From Solwaraspora sp. WMMA2056 (lineage in GTDB: Bacteria; Actinomycetota; Actinomycetes; Mycobacteriales; Micromonosporaceae), in NCBI RefSeq assembly GCF_030345095.1, contig NZ_CP128360.1:5270001-5334000 (forward strand): a DNA stretch of 64,000 nt. Direction: 5' to 3'. Below, one piece after another: positions 2,433 through 29,840 of the stretch. The notes beneath the pieces were generated by a model. That model saw only the letters and a program-made list of their open reading frames with translations, did no database searches and was not told the DNA's origin. The translations under genes were made by a program, and so were the position numbers. Numbering within the stretch: position 1 is the first letter of the stretch; every line of letters starts with the position of its first letter.

Positions 2433-3210
2433 CGATCACCTTCAGGATGAGGTCACGGGACTGGTCACAGGGTAGTGCCCGCGCGCAGATCATCTCCCAG
2501 GCGAGCACCAGATGGCGGAGCTTGTCCGCGGTCTCGCAGACCCGCCCCGCAGTCTGGTCTTCAATGTACGCCGCCGTCCCACCGTCGGGCAGGGTCGCCA
2601 AGACGAACGCCCCGGTCAGGCCCGGATGCAGCCCGGCGGAGAAGGGCAGGACCCGGACGTGCACGGTCTGCCGATGGCCGATGTCGACCAGATGTTCCAA
2701 CTGGTCCTTCATGATCGTCGGCGGGCCGATCCGCAGCGCGGCCTCGCCGATGATCGCGGTCAGCGGCACCGGGTGCGGGTGCGCCCGTTCCAGGGCCGCC
2801 GCCTGCCGCTCCAGCCGCTCCCGGGTCATCTCCTCGACCTGCACCTCGGTGTGCGTCCCGGCGGCAATCACCTCCCGGGCGTACGCCTCGGTCTGCAACA
2901 GGCCCGGAATCAGCGAATGCTCGAACCAGCGCAGCTGCACCGCGCGGGACTCGTTGAGCTTCCACGGCCGCATCCACGGGGCGACCGCCTCGTCGCGGGC
3001 CCGCGCGGCCTGATCCCGCAGCTCGGTGCCGGTGCCGAGCACCCGGTCCAGGTTGACCGCCACGTCGTCCGGTGGCAGCGACCGCCCGGTCTCGTAGTGA
3101 CCGATCTGCGAACCGGTCACGTGCACCTGCGAGCCGAGAGCGTCCTGCGACAGCCCTTTCTCGGTCCGCCGCAACCGCAGGGTGTGCCGAAACTCATTCA
3201 TGATCGCCAT
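2392..3210 (-). CDS. XRE-family helix-turn-helix regulator with DUF5753 domain
   Basis: This is a 272-aa WhiJ-type regulator. An N-terminal HTH_31/XRE domain (about residues 8-65, LRRTEKGLSQDALGSQVHVTGSQIGHYETG) binds DNA. The DUF5753 domain follows (about residues 85-260), with the hallmark LIPGLLQTEAYAREVI. The ATG at 3210 has a GGGGGAG ribosome site about seven bases upstream. It heads a two-gene unit with the overlapping DUF397 gene and is divergent from a hypothetical gene at 3371. The signal sensed is unknown. Confidence 0.92.
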   Translation of the reverse strand: MAIMNEFRHTLRLRRTEKGLSQDALGSQVHVTGSQIGHYETGRSLPPDDVAVNLDRVLGTGTELRDQAARARDEAVAPWMRPWKLNESRAVQLRWFEHSLIPGLLQTEAYAREVIAAGTHTEVQVEEMTRERLERQAAALERAHPHPVPLTAIIGEAALRIGPPTIMKDQLEHLVDIGHRQTVHVRVLPFSAGLHPGLTGAFVLATLPDGGTAAYIEDQTAGRVCETADKLRHLVLAWEMICARALPCDQSRDLILKVIDEHERASVAHLHP

Positions 3211-26623: not shown

Positions 26624-27811
26624 TCAGGTGGCGTCGGTCCCGGCGTCGGGCGGGGTATCGAGGCGCAACGTCGGCCACCCCGACAGGTCGTCGAGCAACT
26701 GCCGGTCATGGGTGGCGACCACCACCGCCGCCGGGGTGGCCAGCAGGGCGGTGGTCAGCTCGTCGACCAGGACCGCCGACAGGTGGTTGGTCGGCTCGTC
26801 GAGGATGAGCAGGTTCGGTCGTTGCGCCAACCGCAACGCGAGGTCGAGCCGACGCTGCTGACCGTGGGACATCCGCCCGACCGGGGTGCCCGAGGCGGTC
26901 CGGTCGAGCAGGCCGGTGGGGTCGGCCGGCCAGGGCGGAACCTCCTGACCGAGGTAGGCGACCCGCGCCGGGGGGAGGTGCGTGACCGACCCGCCCGACG
27001 GGGCCAGGTGCGCGGCGAGAACGGCCAGCAGGGTCGACTTGCCCGCCCCGTTCGGCCCGGTGACGAGCAGCCGGTCGCCGCCGTCCAACTCGACGGTGAC
27101 CGGCCGGGACAACCGTGCCGCCACGGTGACGTCGTGGCAGCGCAGCAGGGGCAGCCCGGGTCGGACGTCGAGGTGGTTGGTCGGCTCGTCCAGCATCAGC
27201 AGGTCGTAGTACGCACCCAGCACGCAGGCCAGCCGGACCCGGTAACGCTGGCCGACCGACAGCGTCGACAGCGGCCTGCTGCGGTCGGGGCAGGCGTCGA
27301 GCCCGGCCAGCGCCACGTCGACCCGACGGTGGGCGTCCCACGCGTCCAGGCGGGTGGCGGCGTCCAGCGCGGTGGCGTAGGCCTCGTCGGCGCCGGGGCG
27401 GCCCTGCGCGATCGCGGTCGAAGCCTCGTCGAGTGCCCGCAGCGCGCGCTGCGAGGCGCGGATCGCGCCCATGGTGAGGTCACCGACGGTCTCGCCAGCG
27501 TAGGCGGGAAGGGTCTGTCGGGCGACGCCGAAGGTGCCGACGCGCCGTACGGTGCCCTGGTCGGGTCGGATGATGCCGGCCAGTACGTGCAGCAACGTCG
27601 TCTTGCCACGGCCGTTCTCACCGACGATGGCCAGCCGCGACGTCGCGGAGACGACGACGCTGACGTCGGCCAGGACCGCCCGTCCGCCGAGTACGACGTG
27701 GAGTCCGTCGGCCCGAACGTGGGCCCGGTCACCGGCTGGCAGTCCACTACCCCAGCCGAGGTCGGATGCTGACGTCAGGTCGAATGGTGGGTTGTTCCCG
27801 GAGTTGTTCAC
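26624..27811 (-). CDS. ABC-F ATPase with apparent internal deletions
   Basis: This 395-aa protein has two ABC domains and no membrane part. NBD1: Walker A GENGRGKT (64-71), signature LSVGQ (184-188), Walker [16 protein letters not shown]2: GPNGAGKST (252-260), signature [18 protein letters not shown]-loop ATHDR (366-370). Full ABC-F proteins of this group are about 530-550 aa. Here DEPTNHLD (207-214) runs directly into [15 protein letters not shown], so the NBD1 H-loop and the interdomain linker that contacts the ribosome are missing. A second gap ([11 protein letters not shown], near 297) removes about 40 more residues. ABC-F proteins rescue antibiotic-stalled ribosomes; this copy may be inactive or altered. 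GTG start. An attenuator-like leader lies upstream. Confidence 0.85.
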
Positions 27812-27835
27812 TGTCTGCTCTCAGCTCGCCGTGGA

Positions 27836-27863
27836 GCCGGGCAGCGCGCAATCGCCGCCCGGC
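27836..27863 (-). terminator. Attenuator-type hairpin before the ABC-F gene
   Basis: On the minus strand GCCGGGC (27857-27863) pairs with GCCCGGC (27836-27842), with an inner GCG/CGC pair around ATTG. It lies between the leader peptide stop (27925) and the ABC-F start (27811). Its left arm could alternatively pair with the repeated GCC sequence at the end of the leader ORF, as in an attenuator. No T-tract. Confidence 0.5.
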
Positions 27864-27924
27864 GGGAACGCCAGGGACGGCGGAGCAGAGTCAGGTCGCG
27901 GAAATGCTGGTCACCCTGCCGCCG

Positions 27925-27969
27925 TCAGCGGCGGCGGCGCAGCTTCCGCGACGCGGTACCTGAGTGCAT
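27925..27969 (-). CDS. Arg-rich leader peptide of the ABC-F gene (MHSGTASRKLRRRR)
   Basis: A 14-codon ORF: ATG at 27969, four consecutive CGC Arg codons, then TGA at 27925-27927. It ends 113 bp before the ABC-F start on the same strand. Its last codons overlap a GC-rich stem (GCCGCC/GGCGGC) that could compete with the hairpin at 27836-27863. Antibiotic-resistance ABC-F genes are commonly controlled by ribosome stalling on short leader ORFs, and Arg-rich C-termini are, to my knowledge, a recurring theme in actinobacterial ones. A TACGGT box lies six bases before the ATG, so the leader may be translated without a ribosome site. Confidence 0.65.
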   Translation of the reverse strand: MHSGTASRKLRRRR

Positions 27970-27975
27970 GCGGCA

Positions 27976-27981
27976 ACCGTA
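27976..27981 (-). promoter_or_regulatory. -10 box for the ABC-F leader transcript
   Basis: TACGGT on the minus strand ends six bases upstream of the leader ATG, which places the expected transcription start at or near the A of that ATG. It fits the actinobacterial TAnnnT consensus. No clear -35 element is visible around 27999-28004, so an activator may be needed. Confidence 0.45.
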
Positions 27982-28042
27982 GCATCGCGGCTGGTCGGGC
28001 AGCTCCCGTCAGAGCCCTCGGGGGCAGTACTGCCGAAAACCG

Positions 28043-28080
28043 TTATTCCACAGGGGTATAATTATTCCTCAGAGGAATAA
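28043..28080. promoter_or_regulatory. Two abutting 19-bp palindromes (tandem operator)
   Basis: TTATTCCACAGGGGTATAA (28043-28061) and TTATTCCTCAGAGGAATAA (28062-28080) match at 16 of 19 positions. The second is a perfect dyad around one A. They form an AT-rich island in GC-rich DNA, about 60-100 bp upstream of the ABC-F leader -10 box. TATAAT on the plus strand (28057-28062) spans the junction. This looks like a dimer-of-dimers repressor site. The regulator is unknown. Confidence 0.65.
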
Positions 28081-28173
28081 CGCTGGATCGACATTTGCCC
28101 GCAGGGTCGATGACGGTGCGTAACGCACCGTTCGCACCGTTGGTCGGACCCGGGCATCGGCAAACCGGCACCG

Positions 28174-28213
28174 GTGATCCCCTACCGGGATCAGCATCCT
28201 GGTAGGGGATCAC
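28174..28213 (-). terminator. Terminator downstream of the pectate lyase
   Basis: GTGATCCCCTACC (28174-28186) pairs perfectly with 28201-28213 around a 14-nt loop, 46 bp beyond the pectate lyase stop. It isolates that gene from the ABC-F regulatory region. No T-tract. Confidence 0.7.
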
Positions 28214-28259
28214 GCTGGACCGCAGCTGACAGTGGTCGGCCGGGCCCAGGATGGGTCGG

Positions 28260-29840
28260 TTATCCGGCGTACGTCTCGAACTCGGCGACCCGCGGGGTGC
28301 CGCTCGCGCCGGTGATCTCGAAGTTGATCTTCCTCAGCGAGGTCGGCGAGAACCGGATCACACCGGCCCCGCTTCCGGTGGCCAGGACTGCGCCGTTGTC
28401 GTTGTTGACGACCCGCCAGGAACCGATGTTGCCGGCGGCACCCGACGCCTCCCGGATGACGATCGCGGCGACCGTGGTCGCGGACCCCCACTTGACCGAG
28501 ATCCGGCCGGTCGAGCCGTTCGGCGACCAGTAGCTGCCCAGGTCACCGTCGACCGCGTTGCCGTAGCTCGTGCCGCTGGCCTTGCTGGACCCGTCGGCAC
28601 CGGCCCCGATGCTGAGGTTGGTCCCACCGGGCTGACCCGGTGCCGGCGTCGTCGGATTCGGCCCCGGGGTGGTCGGGTTCGGACCGGGCGTCGTCGGGTT
28701 CGGTGCCGGCGTCGTGGGCGCCGGGTTCTGCGGGGTGCAGCTGCCGTTGGACACCCGGTTGCCCTTGTTGGCACCGGCCAGCTGCCGGACCAGGTTCGGC
28801 ACGCAGCTCGCCCCGTCCATCGGGTACGGATACGGGATGCTGACGCTGGTGTTGGACTGCGGATTCGGGCCGGCCGGGTTGGTGTCGCCGCCGCGCGACG
28901 ACCAGGTCACGTTGTCGAAGATGTTCCCGCCGACCTGCCAGTAGCCGGCTTCACTGGTGTAGAAGGTGCCGAGGACGTCCTTGGAGTCCTCGAAGTAGTT
29001 GTTGTCCACCTTGGCGCGGGCCCCGGCACGGGAGTTGATCCCGGACTCGTTGAGGTTGACGTAGTAGTTGTTGTACATGTGCCCGATCCCCCCGCGCAGC
29101 AGCGGCGTGCGGGAGTCGATGTTCTCGTACAGGTTGTGGTGGTAGGTGACGAACCCGTTCGAGCGGTCGCTCTCACTGGAGCCCACCAGGCCGCCGCGGC
29201 CGGAGTTGCGCAGGATGCTGTAGGATAGGGTCACGTACTGCGTGTCGTTCTTCATGTCGAACAGGCCGTCGAAGCCCTCCGACTCCCCGCCCGATGCCTC
29301 CAGGGTGACGTGGTCGACCCAGACGTTGCGGACGGACGCCTCCATCCCGATGGCGTCCCCGCCGTTGGAGGTCGGCGAGCCGGACTTCTTGACGTTACGG
29401 ACCGTCACGTTCTGGATGATGATGTTGCGGGCCTCGCGGATGTGGATGCCCACCTGGTCGAAGACCGCTCCGCTGCCGACCCCCACGATCGAGACGTTGC
29501 TGATCTGCTTGAGCTCGATCACCCCGTCGGCGGTGTTGCAGCTGTCGCCCGACACCTTGCTGGTGTTGCCGTGGTTGATGGTGCCCTGCACCTCGATGAT
29601 GATCGGAGTGCTGCTGCTGGCCCGGTTGCACAGCGCCGCGTGCAGGGCGGTGCCGGTGCTGACCCGTACGGTCTGGCCACCCGCGCCACCGGTCGTGCCG
29701 CCGTTGCCGGTCGCGAAACCGGTGGCGCTGCCGGTGACCGAGGCCGATGCCTGGGGCGTCAGCAGGGCCACCCCGATCGTTGCGGCCACGGCTGTCGTGG
29801 CCGCTGCCGCGAGGAGTCTCAGTGCGACTGGTCGTCTCAT
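28260..29840 (-). CDS. Secreted pectate lyase (PL1) with C-terminal discoidin-like module
   Basis: This is a 526-aa secreted enzyme. The signal peptide is at residues 1-34 (cleavage after QASA). The Pec_lyase_C/Amb_all beta-helix (about 55-365) carries NVSIVGVGSGAVF, the calcium-site region GDAIGMEASVRNVWVDHVTLE with DGLFDMKND, and the late YHHNLYENIDSRTPLLRGGIGHMYNN, with Arg as the likely catalytic base. A Pro/Thr linker of repeated NPTTPGP follows, then an F5/8 type C-like carbohydrate-binding module (about 405-526). It cleaves polygalacturonan by beta-elimination. AGGAGAAGG lies before the ATG, and a promoter and operator candidate lie upstream. A terminator follows. Confidence 0.92.
   Translation of the reverse strand: MRRPVALRLLAAAATTAVAATIGVALLTPQASASVTGSATGFATGNGGTTGGAGGQTVRVSTGTALHAALCNRASSSTPIIIEVQGTINHGNTSKVSGDSCNTADGVIELKQISNVSIVGVGSGAVFDQVGIHIREARNIIIQNVTVRNVKKSGSPTSNGGDAIGMEASVRNVWVDHVTLEASGGESEGFDGLFDMKNDTQYVTLSYSILRNSGRGGLVGSSESDRSNGFVTYHHNLYENIDSRTPLLRGGIGHMYNNYYVNLNESGINSRAGARAKVDNNYFEDSKDVLGTFYTSEAGYWQVGGNIFDNVTWSSRGGDTNPAGPNPQSNTSVSIPYPYPMDGASCVPNLVRQLAGANKGNRVSNGSCTPQNPAPTTPAPNPTTPGPNPTTPGPNPTTPAPGQPGGTNLSIGAGADGSSKASGTSYGNAVDGDLGSYWSPNGSTGRISVKWGSATTVAAIVIREASGAAGNIGSWRVVNNDNGAVLATGSGAGVIRFSPTSLRKINFEITGASGTPRVAEFETYAG

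Follow-up and report, generated by a model that had tools for sequence, protein, structure and literature searches.

We describe a conserved RNA element that lies upstream of a gene for an ABC-F protein in Solwaraspora sp. WMMA2056. The DNA that we analyzed is a stretch of 64,000 nucleotides (the window; contig NZ_CP128360.1, positions 5,270,001 to 5,334,000), which is part of the host genome, a single contig of 7.01 Mb. We interpret the element as one copy of a conserved ribosome-stalling attenuator for macrolide-type resistance genes in actinomycetes, similar to the ErmD attenuator, with a leaderless transcript. We put the probability of this reading at roughly 0.7. The leader and its spacing are conserved in relatives, regions 2 and 3 of the RNA covary, region 3 is complementary to region 4, and the genes downstream are of resistance types. 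Stalling would occur on the leader, a macrolide would be the inducing drug, and control would probably be mainly translational. Judging from the sequences, the leader and the switch region together are a conserved RNA family, and the comparison with relatives is the decisive evidence against chance.

An earlier note, written from the letters of the window, had described a 14-codon open reading frame (ORF) with a -10 box at its ATG, four Arg codons inside a GC-rich stem, and a second hairpin ahead of the ABC-F start. All three are present. The layout, in window positions, is:

27981-27976, minus strand: -10 element TACGGT (TAnnnT), 6 nt before the leader ATG, read from the sequence.
27969-27925, minus strand: leader ORF MHSGTASRKLRRRR, 14 codons plus UGA, from the sequence; the 14-codon spacing is kept in relatives.
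27945-27937, minus strand: codons 9-11, Lys-Leu-Arg, which are the +X+ motif at codons -6 to -4 from the stop (motif comparison, with a precedent in ErmDL, PMC8298421).
27939-27928, minus strand: region 1, the terminal Arg codons, 5' arm of a stem with region 2 (window fold).
27926-27913, minus strand: region 2, GACGGCGGCAGGGU, which starts within the UGA stop and is the partner of region 3 (covariation and swap tests).
27891-27876, minus strand: region 3, ACUCUGCUCCGCCGUC, the complement of region 2 and of region 4 (folding and swap tests).
27863-27836, minus strand: constant hairpin D:E, GCCGGGCGGC / GCUGCCCGGC, which fits both states (covariation alignments); this is the second hairpin of the earlier note.
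27832-27814, minus strand: region 4, the ribosome-binding site, ACGGCGAGCUGAGAGCAGA (duplex test).
27822-27817, minus strand: Shine-Dalgarno-like (SD-like) GAGAGC inside region 4.
27811-26624, minus strand: ABC-F gene, 395 amino acids, GTG start at 27811, with two in-frame gaps relative to its relatives.

The UGA stop of the leader lies at the loop of the GC-rich stem, and the four terminal Arg codons are in the 5' arm of that stem. The two pairings on which the switch would depend are 2:3 (27926-27913 with 27891-27876) and 3:4 (27891-27876 with 27832-27814).

In a search with the ABC-F protein, 78 of 300 genomes from the family had matches (E <= 1e-45). For comparison, we used the best 29 relatives plus L010, which is from the same genus. 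The earlier note had said that absence of the leader from relatives would speak against it. Instead, the stop region of the leader is found in all 29 of the ABC-F relatives that were fetched, with UGACGGCGG at most 300 nt upstream of the protein match. Counting back from the conserved stop, 28 of 30 sequences, including the window, have an ATG or GTG at a distance of exactly 14 codons. (The exceptions are L055, with 12 codons, and L061, with 15; some relatives' leaders also have further in-frame starts.) The leader of L010 has diverged yet is recognisable, MCMGTGSLRLRAAA, and the leader types include MARGIWSQKVRSAR, MYTGVASMRLRSRR, and MYSGNVTMKPWSLR.

We then examined the leader peptides. The K-L-R-R-R-R ending that the earlier note proposed to search for is found in the window alone among the leaders listed, so we rejected it as a conserved signature. 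The part of the leader that is kept in relatives is [K/R]-X-[K/R/W] at codons -6 to -4. Among 72 distinct leaders, every one has Lys or Arg at codon -6; at codon -4, 44 have Lys or Arg (+X+, including KLR in the window) and the other 28 have Trp (+XW). (For this count, we left out the named loci that had no TAnnnT-associated start, 10 of 80, and then 29 duplicates, which reduced 101 leaders to 72.) The motif is also present in 31 of 31 sequences of our first alignment (A1), a set chosen without a promoter filter. In published work, +X+ motifs are described as conserved in the upstream ORFs (uORFs) of macrolide-resistance genes, and the Arg-Leu-Arg of ErmDL arrests ribosomes with telithromycin or erythromycin; with telithromycin, the P site holds Leu7 and the A site Arg8 (PMC8298421). 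By analogy, the more likely stall site is K9-L10-R11, with Leu10 predicted to occupy the P site; this position, unlike the terminal Arg run, is the conserved one, and a ribosome halted there would leave region 2 free. Conservation (of the leader, of the promoter's spacing, and of the distance to the switch region) and the covariation of 2:3 support the earlier idea of an attenuator with a leader peptide, and the predicted stall site moves away from the Arg run.

The promoter is conserved in its spacing. In 78 of 89 distinct leaders, 6 or 7 nt separate the end of TAnnnT from the leader start; no other gap of 0-59 nt is seen in more than 3 of 89. The promoter was not used to choose these starts, which were fixed at 14 codons from the stop in A1 and by the start of the model match in the others. 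(We dropped L163, the second L191 match, L199, and any leader with less than 70 nt upstream, and then 9 duplicates, from 98 to 89.) A promoter scan of 27700-28300 found no classical sigma-70 promoter with a -35 element, and in the 89 leaders conservation does not exceed 0.45 bits in any column between -50 and -18. Because the -10 box is directly before the leader start, the simplest reading of the sequences is a leaderless transcript that starts at the leader's own ATG, as the earlier note had suggested.

Next, we consider the RNA structure. In A1 (31 sequences), 98.2% of the cells of helices 2:3 and D:E can pair, and the number of cells with changes on both sides is 18; neither value is reached by any of 500 shuffles. 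Changes on both sides occur in 3 of the 10 pairs of helix 2:3. In a second alignment (A2) of 94 model-aligned sequences, two spurious matches included, 9 of 19 pairs and 64 cells of 2:3 and D:E change on both sides, and five of five measures beat all 500 shuffles. A caveat is that A2 is fitted to the covariance model. D:E is paired in 98.9% of cells in A1 and 99.3% in A2.

We also used a swap test, which compares each sequence's own helix with exchanges between groups and needs no column alignment. (Two spurious matches and 9 duplicates were dropped, which left 114 sequences, and 4 more whose regions could not be located, which left 110.) A sequence's own 2:3 pairs better than the between-group exchange in 102 of 110 cases, and its own 3:4 in 95 of 110. 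Its own 2:3 is below all 20 shuffles in 71 of 110. The RNA can form two mutually exclusive helices, one of which would hide the SD: 2:3 covaries, and in 100 of 105 sequences, three or more of the four SD nucleotides are paired in the best 3:4 duplex. In the window, the probability that the SD pairs with region 3 is 0.78-0.81 if 1:2 is formed or a ribosome is at the stop, and 0.33 if region 1 is masked, which mimics a stalled ribosome. The mean values across sequences are 0.44 with 1:2 forced, 0.60 with the ribosome at the stop, and 0.19 with region 1 masked.

Folding of the transcript, which the earlier note had suggested as a check, gave a divided answer: the full 169 nt folds better than shuffles (z = -3.10; 1 of 200 as good), but the part that follows the leader, folded by itself, is no better than its shuffles (z = -0.77; 38 of 200 as good). 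The earlier claim of alternative pairings is supported by the covariation of 2:3, with 2:3 and 3:4 as the alternatives; the stem around the Arg codons (1:2), although strong in the window's fold, is poorly conserved.

Putting these observations together, we propose the following mechanism. Transcription would begin at the ATG of the leader. In the absence of drug, ribosomes would read the 14 codons to the UGA, which is at the start of region 2, so that the terminating ribosome would cover region 2 (in the window, the 1:2 stem could capture it instead). Region 3 would then pair with region 4 and hide the ribosome-binding site, and the main gene would be off. With a macrolide bound, the ribosome would arrest with codon -5 in the P site, with +X+ or +XW blocking the next bond. 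The leading edge of a stalled ribosome is about 16-17 nt beyond the P-site codon. This would put the edge of the arrested ribosome at the UGA and leave region 2 free. Helix 2:3 would form, region 4 would be released, and the main gene would be translated.

Several observations weigh against this proposal. Synonymous changes do not predominate among the leader codons (66 synonymous vs. 109 nonsynonymous, 33 vs. 102, and 21 vs. 23 in three leader types), so the peptide as a whole varies and the motif is constant. Trp is found at codon -4 in 28 of the 72 leaders, while in ErmDL, Arg-to-Trp there, at the second position, relieved telithromycin stalling (+X+ was not essential for erythromycin stalling; PMC8298421). 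Turning to the RNA, two of the five covariation measures in A1 are no better than shuffles: the number of changed pairs (3) was reached by 40 of 500 shuffles, and the number of further pair types (9) by 155 of 500. Helix 3:4 shows no column-wise covariation in A1, and its register shifts between groups; a sequence's own 3:4 is below each of the 20 shuffles in just 26 of the 110 cases, and in the erm group it beats swaps in only 8 of 15. We rejected helix 1:2 as a conserved part, as two of its six pairs are broken in 9 and 14 of 30 sequences (its swap test gave 18 of 31). Forcing 2:3 makes the SD-region 3 pairing vanish, but it does so by construction. If folding is not forced (31 sequences), the accessibility of the SD changes modestly: the stalled state beats the full transcript in 26 sequences and the ribosome-at-stop state in 26, but it beats a transcript that starts at the last leader codons in only 12 of 31. 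Because this difference is modest, we rejected folding alone as proof of a switch and relied on covariation and the swap tests.

We then asked where else the element occurs. Rfam had no matches at the gathering score in a 3.5-kb region of the window (L001) or in the loci of 4 relatives. Our covariance model matched 28 of 150 genomes from the family (E <= 1e-3), 29 of 298 from the order (E <= 1e-5), and 13 of 394 from the class (E <= 1e-4); these three samples overlap. The matches are at 68 distinct places. With E <= 1e-5, there are 55 places: 35 before ABC-F genes (14 of which are training sequences of the model), 19 before Erm genes, and 1 before an LmrA-like MFS gene. Without the training sequences, 41 of 41 places are before resistance-type genes (21 ABC-F, 19 Erm, and 1 MFS). 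Among the 13 places with E between 1e-5 and 1e-3, 10 precede no ABC-F, Erm, or MFS motif, so our claims use E <= 1e-5 only. The earlier view of the element as an attenuator of an ABC-F gene stands, but the element is not specific to ABC-F: erm genes and one LmrA-like gene also have it upstream.

The downstream genes were classified with motifs that we made ourselves, and NCBIfam was run on one Erm protein, two MFS proteins, and the window's ABC-F protein only. The Erm protein was confirmed (238.6 bits vs. a cut-off of 212 for the broad Erm family). The LmrA-like match of the MFS protein (513.5 bits) is below the cut-off of 850. Two loci, L115 (LmrA-like, 42 bits) and L135 (MFS, DHA2-type efflux, 30 bits), have weaker matches to the model and no convincing leader by eye, so the case for efflux is weak. 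Efflux genes are a possible third class under the element, for which we have one weak example or two.

From a pattern scan of named genomes we obtained 114 stretches, in genera that include Micromonospora, Streptomyces, Nocardia, Corynebacterium, Dietzia, Nocardioides, Actinomadura, and Micrococcus. Among the 80 that were listed, an ABC-F P-loop motif follows in 70, the end of the locus cuts off 2, 6 lack the leader, and 2 (L177 and L208) have a leader without the P-loop motif downstream. Among the 98 loci entered, the best-scoring named records with such leaders are from Micromonospora, Dactylosporangium, and Paractinoplanes. A query with a Corynebacterium leader matched 5 of 72,556 plasmid records (3 from Micrococcus and 2 from Streptomyces). 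In one annotated record of these, the Micrococcus luteus plasmid pCW.Ay, the leader RNA (3001-3139) is directly before an ABC-F gene, which is followed by an MFS transporter.

For Erm, we searched 325 genomes from the class and fetched 30 of the 55 homologues listed. The element is directly upstream of 12 of these 30 (model E <= 0.0021), and all 12 are within the 16 most similar homologues; 5 of the 12 had already been found in the model scan of the class. The other 18 have no model match upstream; in three of them (L251, L262, and L268) we see an ORF that resembles a leader, together with a TAnnnT box. A 2024 survey reported that the uORFs of erm genes are not conserved universally (PMC11264731).

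Could the element act on transcription instead? D:E or another GC-rich stem might be a terminator without a U-tract, with stalling on the leader leading to read-through, as in lmrC, vmlR, and msrD. D:E is strong and nearly invariant, and several ABC-F attenuators have been described as acting on transcription (PMC8546547, PMC10314930, PMC12421871). However, the mean probability of D:E is 0.86 in the full transcript, 0.96 in the stalled state, and 0.83 with the ribosome at the stop (with the RNA ending just past E). These are about equal, so D:E is not the switched element. A scan of 27700-28300 found no terminator-like sites, although the scan requires a T run, which puts terminators without a U-tract outside its reach. 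We do not favour D:E as a switched terminator, and as region 3 is complementary to the SD, we consider control by transcription attenuation unlikely. We also considered that the leader might sense a general slowdown of translation, or a shortage of Arg, Lys, or Trp tRNA, rather than a drug in the tunnel. The leaders do contain these amino acids, and the window's leader ends in four Arg codons. But the number of Arg codons is not conserved, whereas a single +X+ or +XW in a constant position is, and the controlled genes resemble ABC-F, Erm, and LmrA-like resistance genes and not amino-acid genes. We think that this explanation is very improbable.

A different issue is whether the window's own copy still functions, and here the gene itself counts against our interpretation. 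Relative to four relatives, the window's ABC-F protein lacks about 145 residues that make up the end of ABC1 and the linker between the domains, and also about 29 in ABC2, so it does not have two complete ABC domains with the linker. Its best NCBIfam family is TlrC/CarA/OleB/SrmB (NF000171), with 218.2 bits, which is far below the cut-off of 800 (the scan covered the window's protein). From the sequence, the ABC-F protein is probably defective, although the gaps may be an assembly artefact. With two segments missing, this copy of the attenuator may guard a defective gene. The element could then be real and yet, in this genome, a relic with no present function on a decaying gene; the four-Arg ending, which no other leader listed has, would fit with this as well. 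On the other hand, both gaps are in frame, the gene is open over 395 codons, and the leader, the -10 box, 2:3, 3:4, and D:E are all present, with a score of 137.4 bits (the window is one of the model's training sequences). A relic is compatible with a conserved stalling attenuator elsewhere; we view it as a substantial possibility for this copy, but the less probable one.

Upstream of the leader, about 74-111 nt from its start, there is a double palindrome (TTATTCC..GGAATAA type, 28043-28080), which may be an operator or a small repeat. It occurs at at least 20 other places in the same genome (40 of 164 candidates were scored, and six copies were read). Its strict half-site pattern is present in 1 of 20 other genomes searched. 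The gene just upstream, on the same strand, encodes a pectate lyase (28260-29840), whose C-terminal match to F5/8 type C (25.4 bits) is under the cut-off of 28.2.

More broadly, we see an even chance that the element is a modular, leaderless macrolide-sensor RNA that has been passed among unrelated resistance genes (ABC-F, Erm, and LmrA-like efflux) across the Actinomycetota, including plasmids of Micrococcus, and that has split into +X+ and +XW forms tuned to different classes of macrolides. If so, then actinomycetes, the main producers of macrolides, would share one drug-sensing switch for different mechanisms of resistance, and the covariance model would flag resistance genes that are likely to be inducible. 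The strict split between +X+ and +XW would also predict which macrolides each leader senses. Since Trp relieves telithromycin stalling in ErmDL and +X+ is not essential for erythromycin stalling (PMC8298421), +XW leaders are predicted to sense cladinose macrolides and not ketolides.

Finally, we compared the element to known systems. No paper was found for six of the leader peptide strings (older reports on leaders of actinomycete erm or tlrC genes may exist), and a wider literature search returned related systems only. The ermC model has a conserved 1:2 stem in the uninduced state, and the motif of the ErmCL leader differs from the one described here. Our element lacks a conserved 1:2 stem, given the broken pairs in 9 and 14 of 30 sequences and the swap result of 18 of 31, and it has an invariant D:E hairpin enclosed by 3:4. 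As described for ermC, drug stalling on a uORF would refold the mRNA and expose the SD of the resistance gene (PMC10219788). The Streptomyces ABC-F genes lmrC, are5sc, and tiaA are also described as being under ribosome-mediated attenuation with uORFs (PMC8546547, PMC12421871), and msrD is an ABC-F gene with a macrolide-induced leader peptide (PMC10314930). All four attenuators differ from our element in the leader, the drug class, or the terminator. lmrC has a mapped terminator; MsrDL has the peptide MYLIFM, which is unlike the leaders found here, with stalling at the termination step and with a Rho-independent terminator as its target (PMC10314930). The scan of 27700-28300 showed no intrinsic terminator with a U-tract of this type. 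Typical features of stalling attenuators are present: a conserved short uORF (14 codons, with predicted translation) and, in 44 of 72 leaders, the known arrest motif +X+.

The closest match is ErmDL-ermD, in which a short Arg-Leu-Arg leader arrests macrolide- or ketolide-bound ribosomes and controls a macrolide-resistance gene (PMC8298421). Some leaders of the new element even contain the string M-R-L-R. By description, it is set apart from ErmDL-ermD by a -10 box at the leader start with a leaderless transcript, by a motif with constant spacing to the stop codon at the head of the switch helix, and by the placement of one RNA before ABC-F genes, erm genes, and one efflux gene. By analogy, we expect that the mechanism works like ErmD and ermC attenuation.
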